This document shows positions 24,130 to 60,260 of a DNA stretch of 64,000 bases, piece after piece (position 1 is the first letter of the stretch; each line of letters starts with the position of its first letter). The DNA comes from Cellulosimicrobium funkei (GTDB taxonomy: Bacteria > Actinomycetota > Actinomycetes > Actinomycetales > Cellulomonadaceae). The notes under the pieces are model-generated. The model saw nothing but the letters and a program-made list of their open reading frames with translations. It searched no databases and was not told the origin of the DNA. The stretch covers positions 62,001 to 126,000 of the forward strand of contig NZ_JNBQ01000001.1 of assembly GCF_001019615.1 (NCBI RefSeq), read 5' to 3'. Both the position numbers and the translations under genes were made by a program.

Positions 24130-24159
24130 CCTGACGCCCACCCGGCGAGCCATGACGAA

Positions 24160-24189
24160 CGGGCCCGCACCTCGAGAGGTGCGGGCCCG
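24160..24189. terminator. Strong hairpin between pknB and pabA
   Basis: Perfect 13-bp stem, 24160-24172 with 24177-24189, loop CGAG, lying between convergent pknB and pabA. No strong T-run, but position and symmetry suit a bidirectional terminator. Confidence 0.8.
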
Positions 24190-24204
24190 TCGTCGTGCGG
24201 TCGG

Positions 24205-30092: not shown

Positions 30093-30126
30093 CCTCGCAG
30101 GACGGCGCGCCGAGCGCTCGCACGCG

Positions 30127-30154
30127 AAGGGCCCCACCGCGCGGTGGGGCCCTT
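30127..30154. terminator. Hairpin terminator
   Basis: A perfect 28-bp palindrome, 30127-30154, extendable by two pairs to 30125-30156. It lies 35 bp after the Ala/Lys-rich gene and before the convergent membrane gene. Confidence 0.75.
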
Positions 30155-30266
30155 CGTCGTCTCCGCGGACGGCCCGCCGGCCAGGCCGCTGACCAGCCCG
30201 CTGACCAGGCTTCCGGACCGGACGACGAGCGTGCGCCGTCGGTGCGCTTCCTCACGTCTCGCGCAG

Positions 30267-41328: not shown

Positions 41329-41363
41329 CGAGGCCCGCCGTGACCCGGTCACGGCGGGCCTCG
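41329..41363. terminator. Long hairpin terminator
   Basis: 17-bp perfect inverted repeat (41329-41345 with 41347-41363) followed by TCGTCTGT. It separates the plus-strand surface protein gene from the convergent DUF721 gene. Confidence 0.85.
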
Positions 41364-49635: not shown

Positions 49636-49695
49636 TCCGCAGCCCGACATCGGGCGATTCACAAGCTTTGTCTGAAGTTGAGGGAGCAGTCACCG

Positions 49696-50799
49696 ATGGA
49701 CTTCTTCGCGTTCCTCGCCCCGATCGAGTGGGTCGTGGCGTGGATCATGTACCTGTGCCACCAGGGTCTGGTGTTCCTCGGGTTCTCCGACGGCCCCGGC
49801 CCGGCGTGGGTCCTGTCGATCGTCGGGCTCGTCATCATCATCCGCATCCTGCTGATCCCGCTGTTCTTCAAGCAGATCAAGGCATCGCGCGGCATGCAGA
49901 TGCTGCAACCGGAGATGCAGGCGATCCAGAAGAAGTACAAGGGCAAGACGGACCCGGCGTCCCGCGAGGCCATGAGCCGCGAGACGATGGACCTGTACCG
50001 CAAGCACGGGACGAACCCCTTCGCGTCGTGCATGCCGATCCTGTTGCAGTCCCCGATCTTCTTCGCGCTCTTCCGCGTGCTCAACGGCCTCGTGCCCATC
50101 TCCAACGGCACGGACGACCCGATCGGTCCGATCAACTCGGCGGTCGCGAGCGACATCGAGAGCTCGTCGGTGTTCGGAGCGCAGCTGTCCGACGTGTTCC
50201 TGCGTACAGACGACCTGCAGACCAAGATCGTCATCGCCGTGCTCATCGTCGCGATGTGCGCCACCACCTTCTTCACGCAGCGCCAGCTCACGATGAAGAA
50301 CATGCCGAAGGCCGCCCTCGAGGGCCCGATGGCGTCGACGCAGAAGATGATGCTCTACGTCTTCCCGTTCATCTTCGCCGTCTCGGGTGTCAACTTCCCG
50401 GTCGGTGTGCTCGTGTACTGGACGACGACGAACCTCTGGTCCATGGGTCAGCAGTTCTACACGATCCGTCGTATGCCGGCGCCGGGCTCCGAGGCGGAGC
50501 GACTCCTCAAGGAGCGCCAGGCGCGCAAGCGCGCGGCGAAGGGGGTCGTCGAGGACGCCACGCCGGTGATCGAGCAGCCGCGCGGGCAGCGTCAGCAGCC
50601 GAAGCGTAAGGACCGACAGAAGGCTGCGCCCCGTCCGGTCGGGACGACCACACCCAACGTCGACGACGTTCCGGTCGAGGACGCTCCCGTCGAGGACGCC
50701 CCCAAGGCGGCAGATGGATCTGGGACGAACGACGGCGCGAAGGGCTCTCCGGCCACCGGGGCGTCCAAGCCCGCGCCCAAGAAGAAGAAGCAGAAGTAG
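49696..50799 (+). CDS. yidC: Membrane protein insertase YidC
   Basis: 367 residues, Gram-positive-like YidC without the large periplasmic domain. Five hydrophobic segments: near 8-28, 34-60, 110-135, 175-195 and 215-250. Conserved NPFASCMPILLQSPIFFALFRVL, and basic C-terminal tail ending PKKKKQK for ribosome contact. Start ATG 49696 has AGGGAG nine bases upstream. Sits in the usual rnpA-yidD-yidC-jag order. Confidence 0.95.
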   Translation: MDFFAFLAPIEWVVAWIMYLCHQGLVFLGFSDGPGPAWVLSIVGLVIIIRILLIPLFFKQIKASRGMQMLQPEMQAIQKKYKGKTDPASREAMSRETMDLYRKHGTNPFASCMPILLQSPIFFALFRVLNGLVPISNGTDDPIGPINSAVASDIESSSVFGAQLSDVFLRTDDLQTKIVIAVLIVAMCATTFFTQRQLTMKNMPKAALEGPMASTQKMMLYVFPFIFAVSGVNFPVGVLVYWTTTNLWSMGQQFYTIRRMPAPGSEAERLLKERQARKRAAKGVVEDATPVIEQPRGQRQQPKRKDRQKAAPRPVGTTTPNVDDVPVEDAPVEDAPKAADGSGTNDGAKGSPATGASKPAPKKKKQK

Positions 50800-50838
50800 A
50801 CCCGCGCGCGTGCGCGCCCCGCCGTGAGGAGCACCGTC

Positions 50839-51366
50839 ATGACGCCTACCGAGACCCCAGCACCTGAAGACGCCGCCACCGAGGAGTCGACGCGCGAGAC
50901 CACCAGCCTGGAGGAGGAGGGTGAGATCGCAGCGGACTACCTCGAGGAGCTGCTCGACATCGCCGACCTCGACGGTGACATCGACATCGACGTCGAGCAC
51001 GACCGCGCGGCCGTCGAGATCGTCGCTGACGATCCCGCCGCGCTGCGTTCCCTCGTCGGTGAGGACGGCGACGTTCTCGACGCGCTCCAGGAGCTGACCC
51101 GCCTCGCTGTCCAGGCGCGGACGGGGGAGCGGAGTCGACTGATGCTGGACGTGGCCGGTTTCCGCGCCGCTCGACGTCGTGAGCTCACCGCTCAGGCTGA
51201 GGAGGCGATCTCTCGTGTTCAGTCCGGTGGGGCGAAGGTCTCGCTGGAACCGCTGAACGCCTTCGAGCGCAAGGTGATCCACGACGCGGTGGCTGCCGCC
51301 GGCCTCCGGAGCGACTCCGAGGGCGTCGAGCCTCAGCGCTACGTGGTGATCTACCCCGCTGACTGA
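50839..51366 (+). CDS. Jag/KhpB-like KH-R3H RNA-binding protein
   Basis: 175 residues. An acidic head (1-35), a KH domain (about 35-105; LRSLVGEDGDVLDALQELTRLAV) and an R3H domain (about 115-175; LNAFERKVIHDAVAA with R and H spaced as expected, and VVIYP end). The N-terminal Jag domain of Firmicutes is absent, as usual in actinobacteria. Binds RNA; linked to cell elongation in relatives. GAGGAG upstream of ATG 50839. Terminated by the palindrome at 51396-51431. Confidence 0.9.
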   Translation: MTPTETPAPEDAATEESTRETTSLEEEGEIAADYLEELLDIADLDGDIDIDVEHDRAAVEIVADDPAALRSLVGEDGDVLDALQELTRLAVQARTGERSRLMLDVAGFRAARRRELTAQAEEAISRVQSGGAKVSLEPLNAFERKVIHDAVAAAGLRSDSEGVEPQRYVVIYPAD

Positions 51367-51395
51367 CACTGCTTCACTGCTTGGTGTCGGATTCC

Positions 51396-51431
51396 GTTCG
51401 CCCCCCGTTTCACGTGAAACGGGGGGCGAAC
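51396..51431 (+). terminator. 36-bp perfect palindrome: terminator with parS at its tip
   Basis: The sequence from 51396 to 51431 is its own reverse complement over all 36 bases. Its centre (51407-51420) is a perfect parS, GTTTCACGTGAAAC, flanked by C6/G6 blocks and GTTCG/CGAAC. It is followed directly by GTCTTTTTC, a T-tract expected of a factor-independent terminator for the yidC-jag transcript. Confidence 0.85.
51407..51420. other. parS: parS site 1
   Basis: Perfect 14-bp parS GTTTCACGTGAAAC, the ParB binding site, inside the terminator palindrome after jag. Confidence 0.93.
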
Positions 51432-51633
51432 GTCTTTTTCTGCCGTCGCAGGACCCGGTAGCGGTCGCTGGCAGTCTTGCGTCGGGCCCGGCGTCACTCC
51501 TGTCTCCTTCAACGGGTGGCCTTCGGCCCGCCTCGAGCTGACGCGGGAGCGGCGGGCGCACGGATGTGGCTCTGGTGCCTGGGAGTCGCACGGGACGACG
51601 CGGATCACGTGGTGGTCGGGCACGCCGTCGGGC

Positions 51634-51647
51634 GTTTCACGTGAAAC
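51634..51647. other. parS: parS site 2
   Basis: Perfect parS, 38 bp upstream of the chosen rsmG start; ParB binding may affect rsmG expression (inference). Confidence 0.93.
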
Positions 51648-51685: not shown

Positions 51686-52348
51686 ATGCGCGACCTGGTA
51701 GACGGCAACGCGGAGCCGGAGATCTCCCGGGAGTCGCTGACCGAGTACTTCGGTGCGGCGTACCCGACCATCGAACGGTTTGCGGACCGCCTGCGCGAGG
51801 AAGGCGAGCTGCGGGGACTGATCGGTCCCCGCGAGGTTCCTCGCATCTGGGACCGGCACATCCTGAACTCTGCCGCGGTCGTGCCGTTCCTTCCGGAGAC
51901 AGGGCTCATCGCAGACATCGGATCCGGCGCGGGGCTCCCCGGGGTCGTGATCGCAGCGATGCGGCCAGGGGCCTCCGTGTACCTGGTCGAGCCGATGGAG
52001 CGGCGCTGCGCGTGGTTGTCGGAGATCGCCACGGATCTGAACCTCGCGAACATCGAGGTGAAGCGGGGCCGTGCGGAGGAGTACCACGGCGCGTTCGAGT
52101 GCGACGCGGTGACGTCTCGCGCCGTGGCCGCCCTGGACAAGCTGGTCCGGCTCTCGCTGCCGCTCGTTCGACCGGGCGGCGAGATGATCGTGCTGAAGGG
52201 GCGCAACGTGGCGCGCGAGGTGGAGCCCGCCCGCAAGGTGCTGCGACGGCTCAAGGGGGGCGAACCCGAGATCGTTGACGCGCCGACGATCCCCGGTGTA
52301 GAGACCACCACTGTGGTGCGCATCGTGCGGCAGACTGGGGCACGCTGA
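51686..52348 (+). CDS. rsmG: 16S rRNA (guanine527-N7)-methyltransferase RsmG
   Basis: 220 residues. SAM-binding motif IADIGSGAGLPGVVIA, then VYLVEPMERRCAWL and TSRAVAALDKLVRLSLPL, typical of GidB/RsmG. Methylates G527 of 16S rRNA; loss gives low-level streptomycin resistance in relatives. I chose ATG 51686 with GAGG five bases upstream; GTG 51656 is possible but lacks an SD and lies just after parS 2. Standard position before parA. Confidence 0.93.
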   Translation: MRDLVDGNAEPEISRESLTEYFGAAYPTIERFADRLREEGELRGLIGPREVPRIWDRHILNSAAVVPFLPETGLIADIGSGAGLPGVVIAAMRPGASVYLVEPMERRCAWLSEIATDLNLANIEVKRGRAEEYHGAFECDAVTSRAVAALDKLVRLSLPLVRPGGEMIVLKGRNVAREVEPARKVLRRLKGGEPEIVDAPTIPGVETTTVVRIVRQTGAR

Positions 52349-52468
52349 ACCCAACCCTCGACGTCGGCACCGCTGTGTGACGACACGGGGGCGACGAGCG
52401 CTCGACATCCACCGATGGGTGGGCTGGACGGCGCATGCTGGGACGCGACGACGGAGAGGATGAGACGC

Positions 52469-53647
52469 GTGACGGAAAGCCCTGTCGACCCTGGAGGACC
52501 TCAGGATCGGTCGGCGACGTCGCTCTCCCGGGACGGGGGAGGGGCTCGGAACTCCGGGAGTGAGGACGACCGGAGAGCAGCCCTGATGGCGAGCCTGCCG
52601 GTCACGGACGAGTCGACACCGCTCGCCGCTCAGCTCGCCGAGGACGCCAGGCGCCGCATCGACCTCCAAGGCCGCCGCTTCCCACGTCCGGCGTCGACGC
52701 GCATCATCACGGTGGCGAACCAGAAGGGCGGCGTGGGGAAGACCACGACGACGGTGAATCTCGCTGCCGGTCTCGCCCTGGCGGGGCTCAACGTGCTCGT
52801 GATCGACAACGATCCTCAGGGCAACGCATCGACCGCGCTCGGCGTCGAGCACCGCGCCGGGACCCCGTCGGTCTACGAGGTCCTGGTCGACGGCGATCCG
52901 CTCGCCAGCGCGGTTCAGCAGTGCCCTGACATCCCGACGCTGTGGTGTGTACCGGCGACGATCGACCTCTCGGGCGCGGAGATCGAACTGGTCTCCCTCG
53001 TTTCACGTGAAACACGGCTCCGCCGCGCTCTGGACGAGTACCTGGCAGCGCGGGAGCGTGAGGGCCTGGCACCTATCGACTATGTCCTGGTCGACTGCCC
53101 GCCCAGCCTGGGCCTTCTCACCGTGAATGCCTTCGTCGTCGGTCGGGAGGTGCTCATCCCGATCCAGTGCGAGTACTACGCGCTCGAGGGACTGAGCCAG
53201 CTCCTGAAGACGATCGAGCTCATCAAGTCGCACCTCAACCCCGGCCTGCATGTCTCGACGATCCTGCTGACGATGTACGACGGGCGAACCAATCTCGCGC
53301 AGCAGGTGGCGGCAGAGGTGCGCGAGCACTTCCCTGACCAGACCTTGCGGACGACCGTGCCGCGCTCGGTGCGCATCTCAGAGGCCCCGAGCCACGGGCA
53401 GACGGTGATGACCTACGATCCGGGCTCGACGGGTGCGCTCGCGTATCTCGAGGCAGCACGTGAACTGACGCACCGCGGAGCGAACAGGCCTGCCGATCGC
53501 GAGCTGGGTGCGCCCGCAGGGCAGGATGCGGCTCTCGAGCACGGCGACGATCCCGAGACTGCCCCTGTGCCCGAGGCGGTCCGAACCGAACATGAGTTTG
53601 CCGGCACCATCGGTGGTCCCGGCCTGCGGCAGGAGGAACTGCGATGA
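52469..53647 (+). CDS. parA: Chromosome partitioning ATPase ParA
   Basis: 392 residues. Deviant Walker A KGGVGKT at 86-92 (in [20 protein letters not shown]), DNDPQGN, and Walker [15 protein letters not shown]. An ~75-residue disordered head and ~50-residue tail lengthen it beyond the 260-residue core. GTG 52469 with GGAGAGGA upstream was chosen over ATG 52460, which abuts that SD. The codons for about residues 178-182 (VSRET) form a perfect parS. parB follows with a 4-nt overlap. Confidence 0.94.
53000..53013. other. parS: parS site 3, inside parA
   Basis: Perfect parS read in frame within LVSRETR of ParA. Confidence 0.93.
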
Positions 53648-55044
53648 GCGAGAAGCGTCGAGGGCTCGGCCGGGGGCTCGGGGCTCTCATTCCGACCAGC
53701 TCAGAGGGGAAGCGACCGGTAGACGTCTTCTTTCCGAGCCCGACGACTGAGGAGCCCGCGACCGACGCGCTGAACGAGGGCGCTTCCGCAGGTGACGGGG
53801 GCGGGAAGGGGTCGGCCGAGAGCGGGACGCAGGGCACTCCTGTCGTCACCCTTGTCGCGGAGGCCGGCTCAGGTCCTGCGGACCTGGACTCTCTGACATC
53901 GCTCTCGGCTCATGACCTCGCCGAGCTGGAAGCCGTGAGCGCGGGAGACGATGGTGCGCTCGGCCGGAGTGACGACGAGCCGGCGCGGCCCAGGGAGCAC
54001 GACAGCGCGGAGGGGACCGAGCAGAGCACCGAGGGTGCGCCTTCGATCCGTGACGATGCCGCGAGCGTCGTTTCACGTGAAACGACGAGCGCCACGACGG
54101 ATGGCGTGGACACGCCGGGCGAGGGGATCGCGAAGTCGCCTCGGGCGGATCCCCGCGGCGAGCCCACCCCCAGCACCGAGGAGTGGATGGGGAGCGCGGC
54201 TGAGGACCTCGTACCGGTCCCCGGCGCACGATTCGCCGAGGTGCCGACCGCGTCCATCCGTCCGAATCCACGCCAGCCACGCACGGTCTTCGACGAGGGG
54301 GATCTCGACGAGCTCGTCGGTTCGATCCGTGAGATCGGCGTTCTTCAACCCATCGTCGTTCGACCCGTCCCCGGGGAGGACGGTTCCTTCGAGCTGATCA
54401 TGGGGGAGCGGAGGTGGCGCGCGACGCAGGCCGCCGGACTCGACGTGATTCCCGCGATCATCCGCGAGACAGATGACGCTGACCTGCTGCGCGACGCACT
54501 GCTCGAGAACCTGCACCGGAGCGCCCTCAATCCCTTGGAGGAGGCGGCAGCGTACCGCCAGCTCCTCGACGACTTCGGATGCACGCACGAGGAGCTCGCT
54601 GAACGCATCTCTCGGAGTCGCCCGCAGATCTCCAACACTTTGAGGCTTCTGCGACTCCCACCCCTGGTCCAGCGGCGGGTCGCGGCGGGCGTTCTCTCCG
54701 CTGGTCATGCGCGCGCGCTCCTGGGTCTCACCGACGGTGCGGAGATCGAGCGCCTCGCCCAGAGGATCGTGGCTGAGGGGCTCTCGGTCCGTGCAACCGA
54801 GGAGATCGTCGCGATGGGCGGTCTGGACGGCGAAAGGCGTGCGCCGCGCGCGCCGCGCGCGGGTCAGCGCTCCGCTGCGATCGACGAGCTCGCTCATCGC
54901 CTCTCCGACCGCTTCGAGACGCGCGTGAAGGTCGACCTCGGCAAGAACAAGGGGCGCTTGACCGTCGAGTTCGCCTCGGTCGAGGACCTGAACAGGATCC
55001 TCGACGTGATGGCGCCCGACGACCCGGGCCTTCTCCGCAAGTAG
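53644..55044 (+). CDS. parB: Chromosome partitioning protein ParB
   Basis: 466 residues; CTP-dependent clamp that binds parS. Start motif [14 protein letters not shown] for ParA contact. A long acidic low-complexity spacer (about 20-190) makes it longer than most ParB proteins. Core: [20 protein letters not shown], the CTP-binding [20 protein letters not shown] at about 315-335 ([20 protein letters not shown]), and C-terminal dimerisation [21 protein letters not shown] parS site is read within its spacer codons. Confidence 0.95.
54070..54083. other. parS: parS site 4, inside parB
   Basis: Perfect parS read in frame as VVSRETT within the non-conserved spacer of ParB. Confidence 0.93.
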
Positions 55045-55415
55045 CGATCCCAGTCGGGCGCTCTTAGCGCAGCGCACGTCCGAAGCCGATACCGGGACTG
55101 TCGTGAGGTGCTCGCCCGCACCCGCGGCAGTCCCGGTCGCATGTTCGCCGCTCTCGCCGGGGGAGGGTGTGCACTTCTTCCTTCGAGCGCGAGCGGTGCG
55201 GCCGACGAAGTCTTCCACGTGAAGCGGCGACTGGGGGCGGCCGCCGCGTCCCGCTCGCGTGTGCTCGAAACCGACATTGCCTGGGCCGGCCCGACGCCCC
55301 GGGCACGTACCGACGCCGTTCGTGCCGGTGGGTCATCGCTTTCAGCCAGCCCTGCGCTCCACGCGACCTACCGCTCGGTCTGCGGGCACATGATGGCGAG
55401 GCCGCCCCCCGCAAC

Positions 55416-55429
55416 GTTTCACGTGAAAC
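55416..55429. other. parS: parS site 5
   Basis: Perfect parS in the gene-poor region after parB. Confidence 0.93.
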
Positions 55430-55642
55430 GCGCTCCTACCGCTGGACGGGGCCTGTGCGCCGGCGAGGACTCCAGGGGCAACGCACTCGCGGAGTCGTCG
55501 TCACCCACGGAGTGAGGAGGGAGGCCGCAGAAGCTCGAAACGGCGCGTGGGCCTCACGGCATGATTCGAGCCGGAGTACGTCGCGCGACCCGCACCGTAG
55601 TTGATTCCGCGCTGGGTACTTCGCGGAGGGCCGCGCATCCGG

Positions 55643-55735
55643 TGACGGTCTCGCGGCGCATGACGATCTCGATACCGCATGACGATCTCGACATCACGTG
55701 ACGATCTGGACAACACGTGACGGTCTCGCGTCGCT
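55643..55735. repeat. Five-copy tandem repeat, period 18-19 bp
   Basis: TGACGRTCTSG starts at 55643, 55661, 55680, 55699 and 55718. The spacers vary, and in copies 3-5 the junction reads CACGTGAC, the central hexamer of parS. An iteron-like array near oriC. Confidence 0.8.
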
Positions 55736-55839
55736 GAGTCAGGCTGTATCCGTGATGGCGCGCCGTTCGCCAGATGTCAGGACAGTGTGAACTGCGGGCG
55801 GCGGAGAGCACGGTGTCGGAGACCACAAACCCGTCCGCT

Positions 55840-55853
55840 GTTTCACGTGGAAC
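55840..55853. other. parS-like site with one mismatch
   Basis: GTTTCACGTGGAAC matches parS at 13 of 14 positions and lies 31 bp before parS 6. Confidence 0.75.
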
Positions 55854-55884
55854 TACGTGGCGGAGAGCCGCGCGCGGAGGGGCC

Positions 55885-55898
55885 GTTTCACGTGAAAC
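55885..55898. other. parS: parS site 6
   Basis: Perfect parS, paired with the 13/14 site 45 bp upstream. Confidence 0.93.
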
Positions 55899-56246
55899 AG
55901 TCCGGCGGTGCCCGCTGACCGATGACGAGGCGTCCCGCGGCACGGGGCCTTCCGACGCACTCGGGTTCCCTGGCTCTCTGCGGGGGGAGGGGTACACGCA
56001 AGCGCTGGCGCCCGGTCTCTACGGGGCGGGGACTTCGGCGCGCGGGCCCCGCTCGGTCCGTGCTCATCGCTAACGGCATCAGCGCTCAGGGCAGCGACCG
56101 ACGGCAGCCGCCACACGGCCCCCAAGCTCTGGTCCACGTCCGTACAAGTGCCCGAGAGAGCGCCAGAGCACGCACTAGTGCCGGAGCTTAAGCCGGGGTC
56201 TGCCATCGGGCCGGTGTCTGAACCTGAGCCTGCGCCCCCAAACTGG

Positions 56247-56300
56247 GCCGCGTCTGGACTAGTGCTGCGCCTGAAAACTGAGCCGCGTCTGAACTGGTGC
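56247..56300. repeat. Degenerate direct repeat, 35-bp period
   Basis: A 19-bp motif beginning GCCGCGTCTG occurs at 56247-56265 and 56282-56300 with two differences. Surrounding DNA (56150-56480) is full of shorter GTCTGAAC and GCCTGAGCC echoes. Confidence 0.6.
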
Positions 56301-57479
56301 CTCGACCGAACTACCGCCCGAGAGCGAAACCAGGCCTGAAGTCACGTCACCCTCCCCTATCTAAGCCCCAGTCCGAGGGAGGCCGCGTCCGGGCCTGAGC
56401 CGGGTGTCCGAGCCCAAGCCGGACCTCGTGTCCGAACGAGCGCCTGCGTTCGAGCCCATGCCTGATCCGGTCGAACCAACCCGGTCCCGCGCGGCGCACT
56501 GTCGCGCCGTGCGCCGTCCCGCTTCGACCACAGGGAGCTCATCGAACCGTGGAAGCGCGTGACGGGTGAGCAACCTCTGCGGTGACGTTCGTGTGGAATC
56601 TGGCAGACGAGTTCGCCCCGGACGAGCGATCCGCAGCACGACGCGGCGCGGCGGACGGATGAGTGGTGTTCATCCGGGACGGTGGGGGCGCCTGATGAGG
56701 AAGTCCTCTCGGCGAATCGGCTCGCGCCACGGCACGGGACGCTCGCGCCACAGCACGGGACAGAGTGGCATCGGGCCGCCGGGTGGCGTCGCCACCGGAA
56801 GAACGGGTCATGTCCCGGGAACCCTGGGGCTCTGGGCGAGGCCATGGTGCGTCGTCATGTGGTCGGCATGTTCACCGAGGCTCCGCGGATGAGATGCGGC
56901 TCACCGTCCGGATCGTCTGCAAGAGCCACGCTGACGCGAGCACGTCCGCGGTCGATCGCGCGACCGATGACCGCCCCCAGGTTTTCTGGACCGACGCGAT
57001 GCGTGTCCCTTCTTCCTCCCCACGGACCGTGGTCGCCTGGTGTGCGGTACGAGATCAGGGGAGAGGGCGTCGGCAAGGATCGATGAGGCCTGAGGTCAGG
57101 AGCATGCGCCGGACCGTGGGGGCGATGGACCCGCGGCCCGGTTGACCGGACGGTGAGCTGTCGTGACCACGACGTGTGTGGGCGTCGGCGGGGACGATCC
57201 TGTCGGCCGGGTCGAGCACCGTCGGCCCGAGGAGCGTGACGTGGGGCGGGATCGACCATGCGTCGGGGGAGGCGTGTCTCCGGATGTCCGCGGCGAGGAC
57301 CAGCCGGGAGCCGAGTCCTTCACGACGCTCCGGCGACGGCGGAGCCCCGCAGAGACCCGAACGACCGAAGAAGACGACCGACGAGCACCACCAGGCAAGA
57401 AAGACCGATCGATCAATGCCAGTGATCAAGAGCCGTGACCGAGACCAGGCGATGACCACGAGAAGGCCAGCACCGAGCA

Positions 57480-57535
57480 GGCAGCACCAGGCGGGCAGCA
57501 CCAGGCGGGCAGCACGAGGTGGGCAGCACCAGGCG
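57480..57535. repeat. Four-copy 14-bp tandem repeat
   Basis: GGCAGCACCAGGCG is repeated at 57480, 57494, 57508 (two changes) and 57522, in the gene-poor region, 138 bp before parS 7. Confidence 0.85.
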
Positions 57536-57672
57536 AGCACGACGAGCGAGCAAGACCCAGCGAGGCGTACCAGGTAAGCAGGGCCACGACACGGCAGTAC
57601 GAAACGACGGAGATCAGGAACCGCGGCGTGGGAGCGAGGACCGCCGACCCGTCGAGCCTTCGCTAGTTCGAC

Positions 57673-57686
57673 GTTTCACGTGAAAC
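57673..57686. other. parS: parS site 7
   Basis: Perfect parS at the edge of the gene-poor region, 36 bp from the ddl-like gene stop. Confidence 0.93.
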
Positions 57687-57721
57687 GGCGACCGGCAGCA
57701 CGGAAATCCCACCGTAGCCGC

Positions 57722-60217: not shown

Positions 60218-60260
60218 CGCCGGAGGGCGGACCGCGGTGCTCGCGGTCCGCCCTCCGGCG
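60218..60260 (-). terminator. Strong hairpin after trxA
   Basis: 19-bp perfect stem (60218-60236 with 60242-60260), loop GTGCT, between the trxA stop and the aminotransferase start, both on the minus strand. Separates the two transcripts. Confidence 0.85.

Follow-up and report, generated by a model that had tools for sequence, protein, structure and literature searches.

We found a perfect 38-bp palindrome behind the jag gene of Cellulosimicrobium funkei, the center of which is an exact copy of the parS centromere site and the transcript of which is predicted to fold into a long hairpin with parS as its tip. The element lies between yidC-jag and the rsmG-parA-parB group in the window, by which we mean the whole 64,000-nucleotide stretch of DNA that was analyzed (Table 1). 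Very probably, this one stretch of DNA is read in two ways: the center of the double-stranded DNA would be a parS site that loads ParB, and the RNA would be a hairpin that ends the yidC-jag transcript, with no need for active coupling between the two.

The palindrome behind jag and its counterparts in close relatives

The palindrome consists of CGTTCGCCCCCC-GTTTCACGTGAAAC-GGGGGGCGAACG, a perfect inverted repeat that is followed by TCTTTTTCTG. A sequence-only reading of the window had described a perfect palindrome of 36 bp; the self-complementarity was indeed perfect, but the element was found to be 2 bp longer. The same reading had correctly identified the central 14 bp as a perfect parS, with 0 mismatches to the consensus, and the tract TCTTTTTC that follows the stem on the plus strand. 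The distance from the jag stop codon to the palindrome is 29 nt, and that from the palindrome to rsmG is about 220-250 nt. Its RNA is predicted to form a stable, GC-rich hairpin close behind a stop codon, with a 17-bp stem and a loop of ACGU; the folding energy of the 101-nt region was -54.4 kcal/mol (z = -6.5). A search of Rfam with the hairpin revealed no family near the gathering score.

Table 1. Features around the parS-centered palindrome (positions in the window).
Feature	Position	Strand	Basis
yidC, membrane insertase, upstream in the transcript of jag	49678..50799	+	NCBIfam NF002350
jag (Jag/EloR RNA-binding protein), last gene ahead of the hairpin	50824..51366	+	NCBIfam NF041568, E=6e-28, below curated cut-off
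38-bp perfect palindrome, predicted jag-operon terminator hairpin with parS tip	51395..51432	+	sequence, fold, compensatory arm changes in relatives
parS core GTTTCACGTGAAAC, predicted ParB site	51407..51420		exact consensus
T tract TCTTTTTC, directly 3' of the stem	51433..51440	+	varies within genus
Second parS, without arms, between the hairpin and rsmG	51634..51647		consensus match
rsmG (16S rRNA methyltransferase), first gene past the hairpin, opens the rsmG-parA-parB group	51686..52348	+	TIGR00138
parA	52460..53647	+	ParA-type ATPase matches
parB, protein reading parS	53644..55044	+	TIGR00180 above cut-off

A pattern search of the whole genome revealed eight perfect parS sites and a ninth that deviates at one base. 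Of the eight perfect sites, seven were located inside 6.3 kb around parAB (51.4-57.7 kb of the window), and the hairpin parS shared this clustering near oriC and parAB; the genome encodes a chromosomal ParB (TIGR00180). The remaining parS sites in the window all had arms of at most 4 bp. The parS-centered palindrome is not due to chance, given that its parS stands alone among these sites in having longer arms and that long arms were in excess in unselected jag loci (see below).

We also observed several features of the other sites. The parS at 52999-53014 is positioned inside the parA coding frame, where it is read as VSRET, and is conserved across the genus. A site with one mismatch, GTTTCACGTGGAAC at 55840-55853, lies 45 bp ahead of a perfect parS at 55885, and the region from parB to a ddl-like gene (55045-57721), about 2.7 kb without a convincing gene call, contains four parS sites. 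The sole perfect parS far from the cluster (L198 2067-2080; C1:361566 of this genome) is inside a coding frame, which we take, by eye only, to resemble sbcD, a subunit of the SbcCD nuclease; congeners retain this parS, in some cases with one mismatch.

In the congeners and close relatives, which were taken as Cellulosimicrobium from named loci, the position of parS after jag was kept, and the arms varied jointly on both sides (CGTTCGCCCCCC, CGTTCGCCCCTC, GTCGCCCCGC and TTCGCCCCGC, each matched by an exactly complementary arm). The variant arms include CCCCTC/GAGGGG and CCCCGC/GCGGGG. Relatives that carry parS without the C6/G6 arms, which the sequence-only reading had named as grounds against a dual use, were thus literally present, yet the changed arms still pair and therefore do not refute it. 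The arms of two loci (L006 and L007) were non-complementary as DNA and pair as RNA via G-U, and in another (L009) parS formed one side of a longer stem. Two further loci (L011 and L028) contained a hairpin at the same spot after jag with basal stems of the same kind (GCGCCCCC...GGGGGCGC and GCGCCTCC...GGAGGCGT) and an ordinary non-parS tetraloop as the tip. A hairpin is therefore present at the jag 3' end both with and without parS as the tip, and this swap shows the tip of the predicted jag hairpin to be exchangeable. The U tract after the stem, TCTTTTTC in the window, was absent in L002, L003, L004 and L005 and was not conserved in the genus.

We observed a different arrangement in Aeromicrobium (L066 3522-3560; L042, L043, L051, L064 and L080), where parS abuts, rather than tips, a separate terminator-like hairpin after jag. 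The hairpin adjoining parS is a strong stem, ACCCCCGCCGC...GCGGCGGGGGTGTT.

Recurrence of parS hairpins in actinobacteria

Long arms were examined in an unselected set of 254 parS sites in jag loci, which were chosen regardless of hairpins. Perfect arms of at least 8 bp were found at 13 of the 254 sites, compared with 0.012 expected from base composition, and those of at least 10 bp at 11 sites, compared with 0.001 expected; the arms of 229 sites measured 0-2 bp. When all perfect palindromes of at least 22 bp were collected from 569 kb of jag loci and the window (n = 28), 20 were centered on parS. Additionally, seven genomes from a single genus in family f32 were read unselected, and arms of at least 7 bp were present at 21 of their 60 parS sites, compared with 0.01 expected. 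One locus (L106) was left out, as its apparent 54-bp arms reach the contig end and represent an assembly fold-back.

An alignment of 18 diverse parS hairpins revealed that 95.8% of the pair cells were paired, with two-sided changes at all 12 arm pairs, and the covariation score was 0.72, compared with 0.17 for the shuffled and up to 0.18 for the slid alignment. Compensatory changes kept the arms paired, and in the larger site set (see below) the imperfect pairs on the transcript strand were mostly G-U. The arms were unrelated in sequence between genera. A mobile or REP-like repeat was ruled out, as no arm sequence was common between genera.

A covariance model was built from the 18 hairpins, and matches were counted at E up to 0.001. 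In the order, the model matched 87 of 396 genomes, from 44 of 108 genera; the counts were 90 of 394 genomes in the class and 51 of 386 in the phylum, in samples that overlap partly, and the matches in the phylum sample included other classes. The co-occurrence of stem and parS, which the sequence-only reading had suggested looking for in homologous loci, thus recurs widely. The parS core alone was found in 329 of the 394 class genomes; the reversed core, used as a control, occurred in one. In a family with genomes of 6-11 Mb and 6-43 parS sites each (f34, probably Streptomycetaceae), 40 of the 43 class-sample genomes had at least one parS hairpin, and about 84 of 756 perfect parS sites were within a hairpin. 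As judged from these sequences, parS hairpins have arisen repeatedly in unrelated lineages of actinobacteria.

Some loci contained paired parS hairpins with differing arms between convergent genes (positions 1457 and 1513 in L157, 1429 and 1513 in L159, 1470 and 1513 in L169, 1513 and 1558 in L171, and 1472 and 1513 in L172). The paired hairpins of large genomes were 41-84 bp apart, as if there were one per direction. The site at 1513 in L158 had 19-bp arms, the outer part of which belongs to a neighboring parS, resulting in a nested palindrome of several parS sites.

Position, wobble pairs and tails of the extended parS sites

The 138 extended parS sites came from a model that demands pairing; their position, G-U bias and T tract are independent of this demand. 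Gene ends were taken from a home-made caller with separate models per GC class, as the first calls were poor in GC-poor loci. As evident from the results, 117 of the 138 extended sites were located within 100 nt past a stop codon, compared with 89 of 419 unextended sites (Fisher p about 3e-41), and the median distance of the extended sites from the stop codon was 31 nt. Imperfect pairs were counted at sites flanked by genes of the same direction, with the upstream gene defining the transcript strand; on this strand, 19 were G-U and 4 were A-C (p 0.003). The 8 nt past the stem contained 3.04 T on the transcript strand versus 1.59 on the opposite strand (p 4e-6; 55 vs 16 sites), whereas the tails of the unextended sites did not differ (1.39 vs 1.31). 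Although related genomes are not fully independent, these signals held after collapse to 51 arm clusters with one representative each (G-U 14 vs A-C 2; T 3.43 vs 1.73). Of the 138 sites, 54 were between convergent genes; between such genes, the tails on the two sides were equal in T (2.17 and 2.20), which is what a terminator shared by two genes should show. Covariation by itself would be equally expected of a DNA palindrome; it is the position, the G-U bias and the one-strand T tract that mark a putative RNA hairpin rather than a palindrome acting only as DNA.

To place the predicted hairpin among other gene ends, we compared it with further hairpins. Four other long, perfect intergenic hairpins in the window (24159-24190, 30125-30156, 41329-41363 and 60218-60260) were found 18-39 nt past stop codons, also without strong T tracts, and are probably ordinary terminators of this genome; given the similar place and the weak T tract, the parS hairpin therefore resembles the other presumed terminators. 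The GC-poor members (L107, L120, L139, L173 and L181) had the textbook terminator form with T runs, which reached T8 in L173. Streptomyces terminators mapped by Term-seq have 3-4 U in the first 10 nt and the longest and most stable hairpins, with transcript ends 66-76 nt past the stop codon (PMC12207403), and the parS hairpins, as predicted, fit these published features. The hairpin thus appears, on its sequence features, to end the transcript of the neighboring gene. The use of the same DNA as a ParB site and as the jag-operon terminator, as the sequence-only reading had proposed, is supported by the compensatory arms, the position past the stop codon, the G-U bias, the T tract and the congeners with non-parS tips.

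The hairpin might instead shield the mRNA 3' end from exonucleases or mark a Rho-dependent end, without being an intrinsic terminator itself. Several congeners have no T tract; in view of its absence in L002-L005, some of the hairpins may shield a 3' end that is produced by another route (Rho) and may not terminate alone. In Streptomyces, too, a U tract is missing from most structured 3' ends, which may represent either I-shaped terminators or Rho ends after trimming (PMC8269248). We nevertheless regard this explanation as unlikely, as the T tract is present in the window and is enriched overall on the transcript strand.

A coupled switch, in which ParB on or spreading from parS alters yidC-jag termination and the segregation state feeds into the expression of jag or of rsmG-parAB, is improbable. 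The same 14 bp would be contested by ParB and RNA polymerase, the hairpin separates yidC-jag from rsmG-parA-parB, and ParB of P. aeruginosa can repress parS-adjacent genes, but the loss of Spo0J in B. subtilis left such genes unchanged (PMC7022226). Moreover, the recurring sites follow unrelated genes, and many are between convergent genes, which leaves no common regulated gene; the majority of parS sites in the same genomes are outside hairpins. Nothing in the analysis supported the coupling of segregation to termination by ParB spreading that the sequence-only reading had envisaged, and a dual use does not require it.

It is very unlikely that the arms serve ParB or a cruciform at the DNA level, as an extended centromere in which the RNA has no role. 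Perfect inverted repeats and covarying arms would agree with such an element, and a few sites (L100 and L102, with arms of 26-28 bp) exceed by far what a terminator needs. In contrast, a DNA element would be symmetric, which is at odds with the excess of G-U over A-C pairs and the strand-specific T tract, and nearly all extended sites were just past stop codons, unlike the unextended parS sites of the same genomes. The lack of a common arm sequence also speaks against it; an extended ParB recognition motif was ruled out, as the arms share no sequence between genera.

Least probable of all is a mutational drive, in which the parS palindrome nucleates template switching, an established mutation route at quasi-palindromes, and so grows longer without selection: many arms are perfect beyond mere pairing, but such a process would affect all parS sites alike, whereas the extended ones follow stop codons and show a strand-specific T tract. 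Template switching may contribute to the perfection of arms that are under selection for other reasons.

Two proposed readings of one DNA element and comparison with known systems

The favored explanation, a parS site and a terminator hairpin in one DNA element, rests on the observed sequence, pairing, covariation, place, strand asymmetry and recurrence. As double-stranded DNA, the center of the element would be a functional parS that loads ParB. RNA polymerase leaving jag would transcribe parS, and the 38 nt would fold into a long GC-rich hairpin with the transcribed parS, GUUUC-ACGU-GAAAC, as its tip. The hairpin and the short U tract would end the yidC-jag RNA ahead of rsmG-parA-parB, and the DNA would stay an intact parS for ParB while the RNA folds. 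We infer the stopping of RNA polymerase at the hairpin and the loading of ParB, neither of which would need active coupling to the other. In vitro, a DNA stem-loop oligonucleotide that carries parS is used as a ligand for ParB (PMC10770331); recognition is therefore not necessarily blocked by complementary arms. As parS is palindromic, it would provide a ready-made hairpin tip, a 5-bp stem and loop for free. If parS closely follows a stop codon, complementary arms may be built around it by selection for a terminator; alternatively, an existing terminator may gain parS as its tip.

A more far-reaching proposal, which we consider possible but doubtful, is that the arrangement is a selected device throughout Actinomycetota. 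Placing parS inside an often bidirectional terminator would keep the points of ParB loading at the boundaries of transcription and thereby prevent polymerase from continuing past parS into the DNA along which ParB clamps slide; alternatively, it would allow ParB and polymerase to affect one another there.

The recurrence in unrelated lineages suggests that the same base pairs can be used both as a centromere sequence and as a transcription stop signal, and that this has come about repeatedly. The parS hairpins may serve as ready-made natural test sites for the coexistence of ParB clamps and RNA polymerase near the origin. In practical terms, parS mutants may disturb transcription ends, and the deletion of such a terminator may disturb segregation.

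The sequence-only reading had seen no description of the dual use, and we also found no description of parS inside terminators in the literature searched, although most subscription papers were outside its scope and absence is no proof. A review of parS treats promoters, not terminators (PMC7022226). The hairpin parS resembles the chromosomal ParABS sites of actinobacteria in its exact 14-bp consensus GTTTCACGTGAAAC and in the cluster near oriC and parAB; ordinary actinobacterial parS sites differ in having no complementary arms. In M. bovis BCG, a parS in the same jag-gidB region also overlaps a transcription signal, the promoter of gidB (rsmG) (PMC2346475); there, it is a -10 element at a gene start, whereas here it is a putative terminator at a gene end. 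The intrinsic or I-shaped terminators of GC-rich actinobacteria share the long GC-rich hairpin about 20-60 nt from the stop codon and the short or weak U tract, but the sequence of their tip is free, in contrast to the conserved protein-binding DNA site at the tip of the parS hairpins.

The nearest analogue that we found is the DUS/USS terminators of Neisseria and Pasteurellaceae, in which a functional DNA motif doubles as a terminator stem and recurs at gene ends; in Neisseria, rho-independent terminators are formed by inverted pairs of uptake sequences (PMC2397512, which cites Ambur 2007 and Kingsford 2007). The DUS stems comprise two inverted copies of a non-palindromic motif and number hundreds per genome, whereas each parS hairpin has one palindromic centromere site as its tip and free arms. 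Recurrence of the motif in predicted terminators across genomes was found for parS as well, and two inverted copies were not; by this analogy, the parS hairpins would work like the DUS/USS terminators but are not members of that type. A functional DNA motif that doubles as a terminator is thus a known principle, and what appears to be new here is its extension to a centromere.
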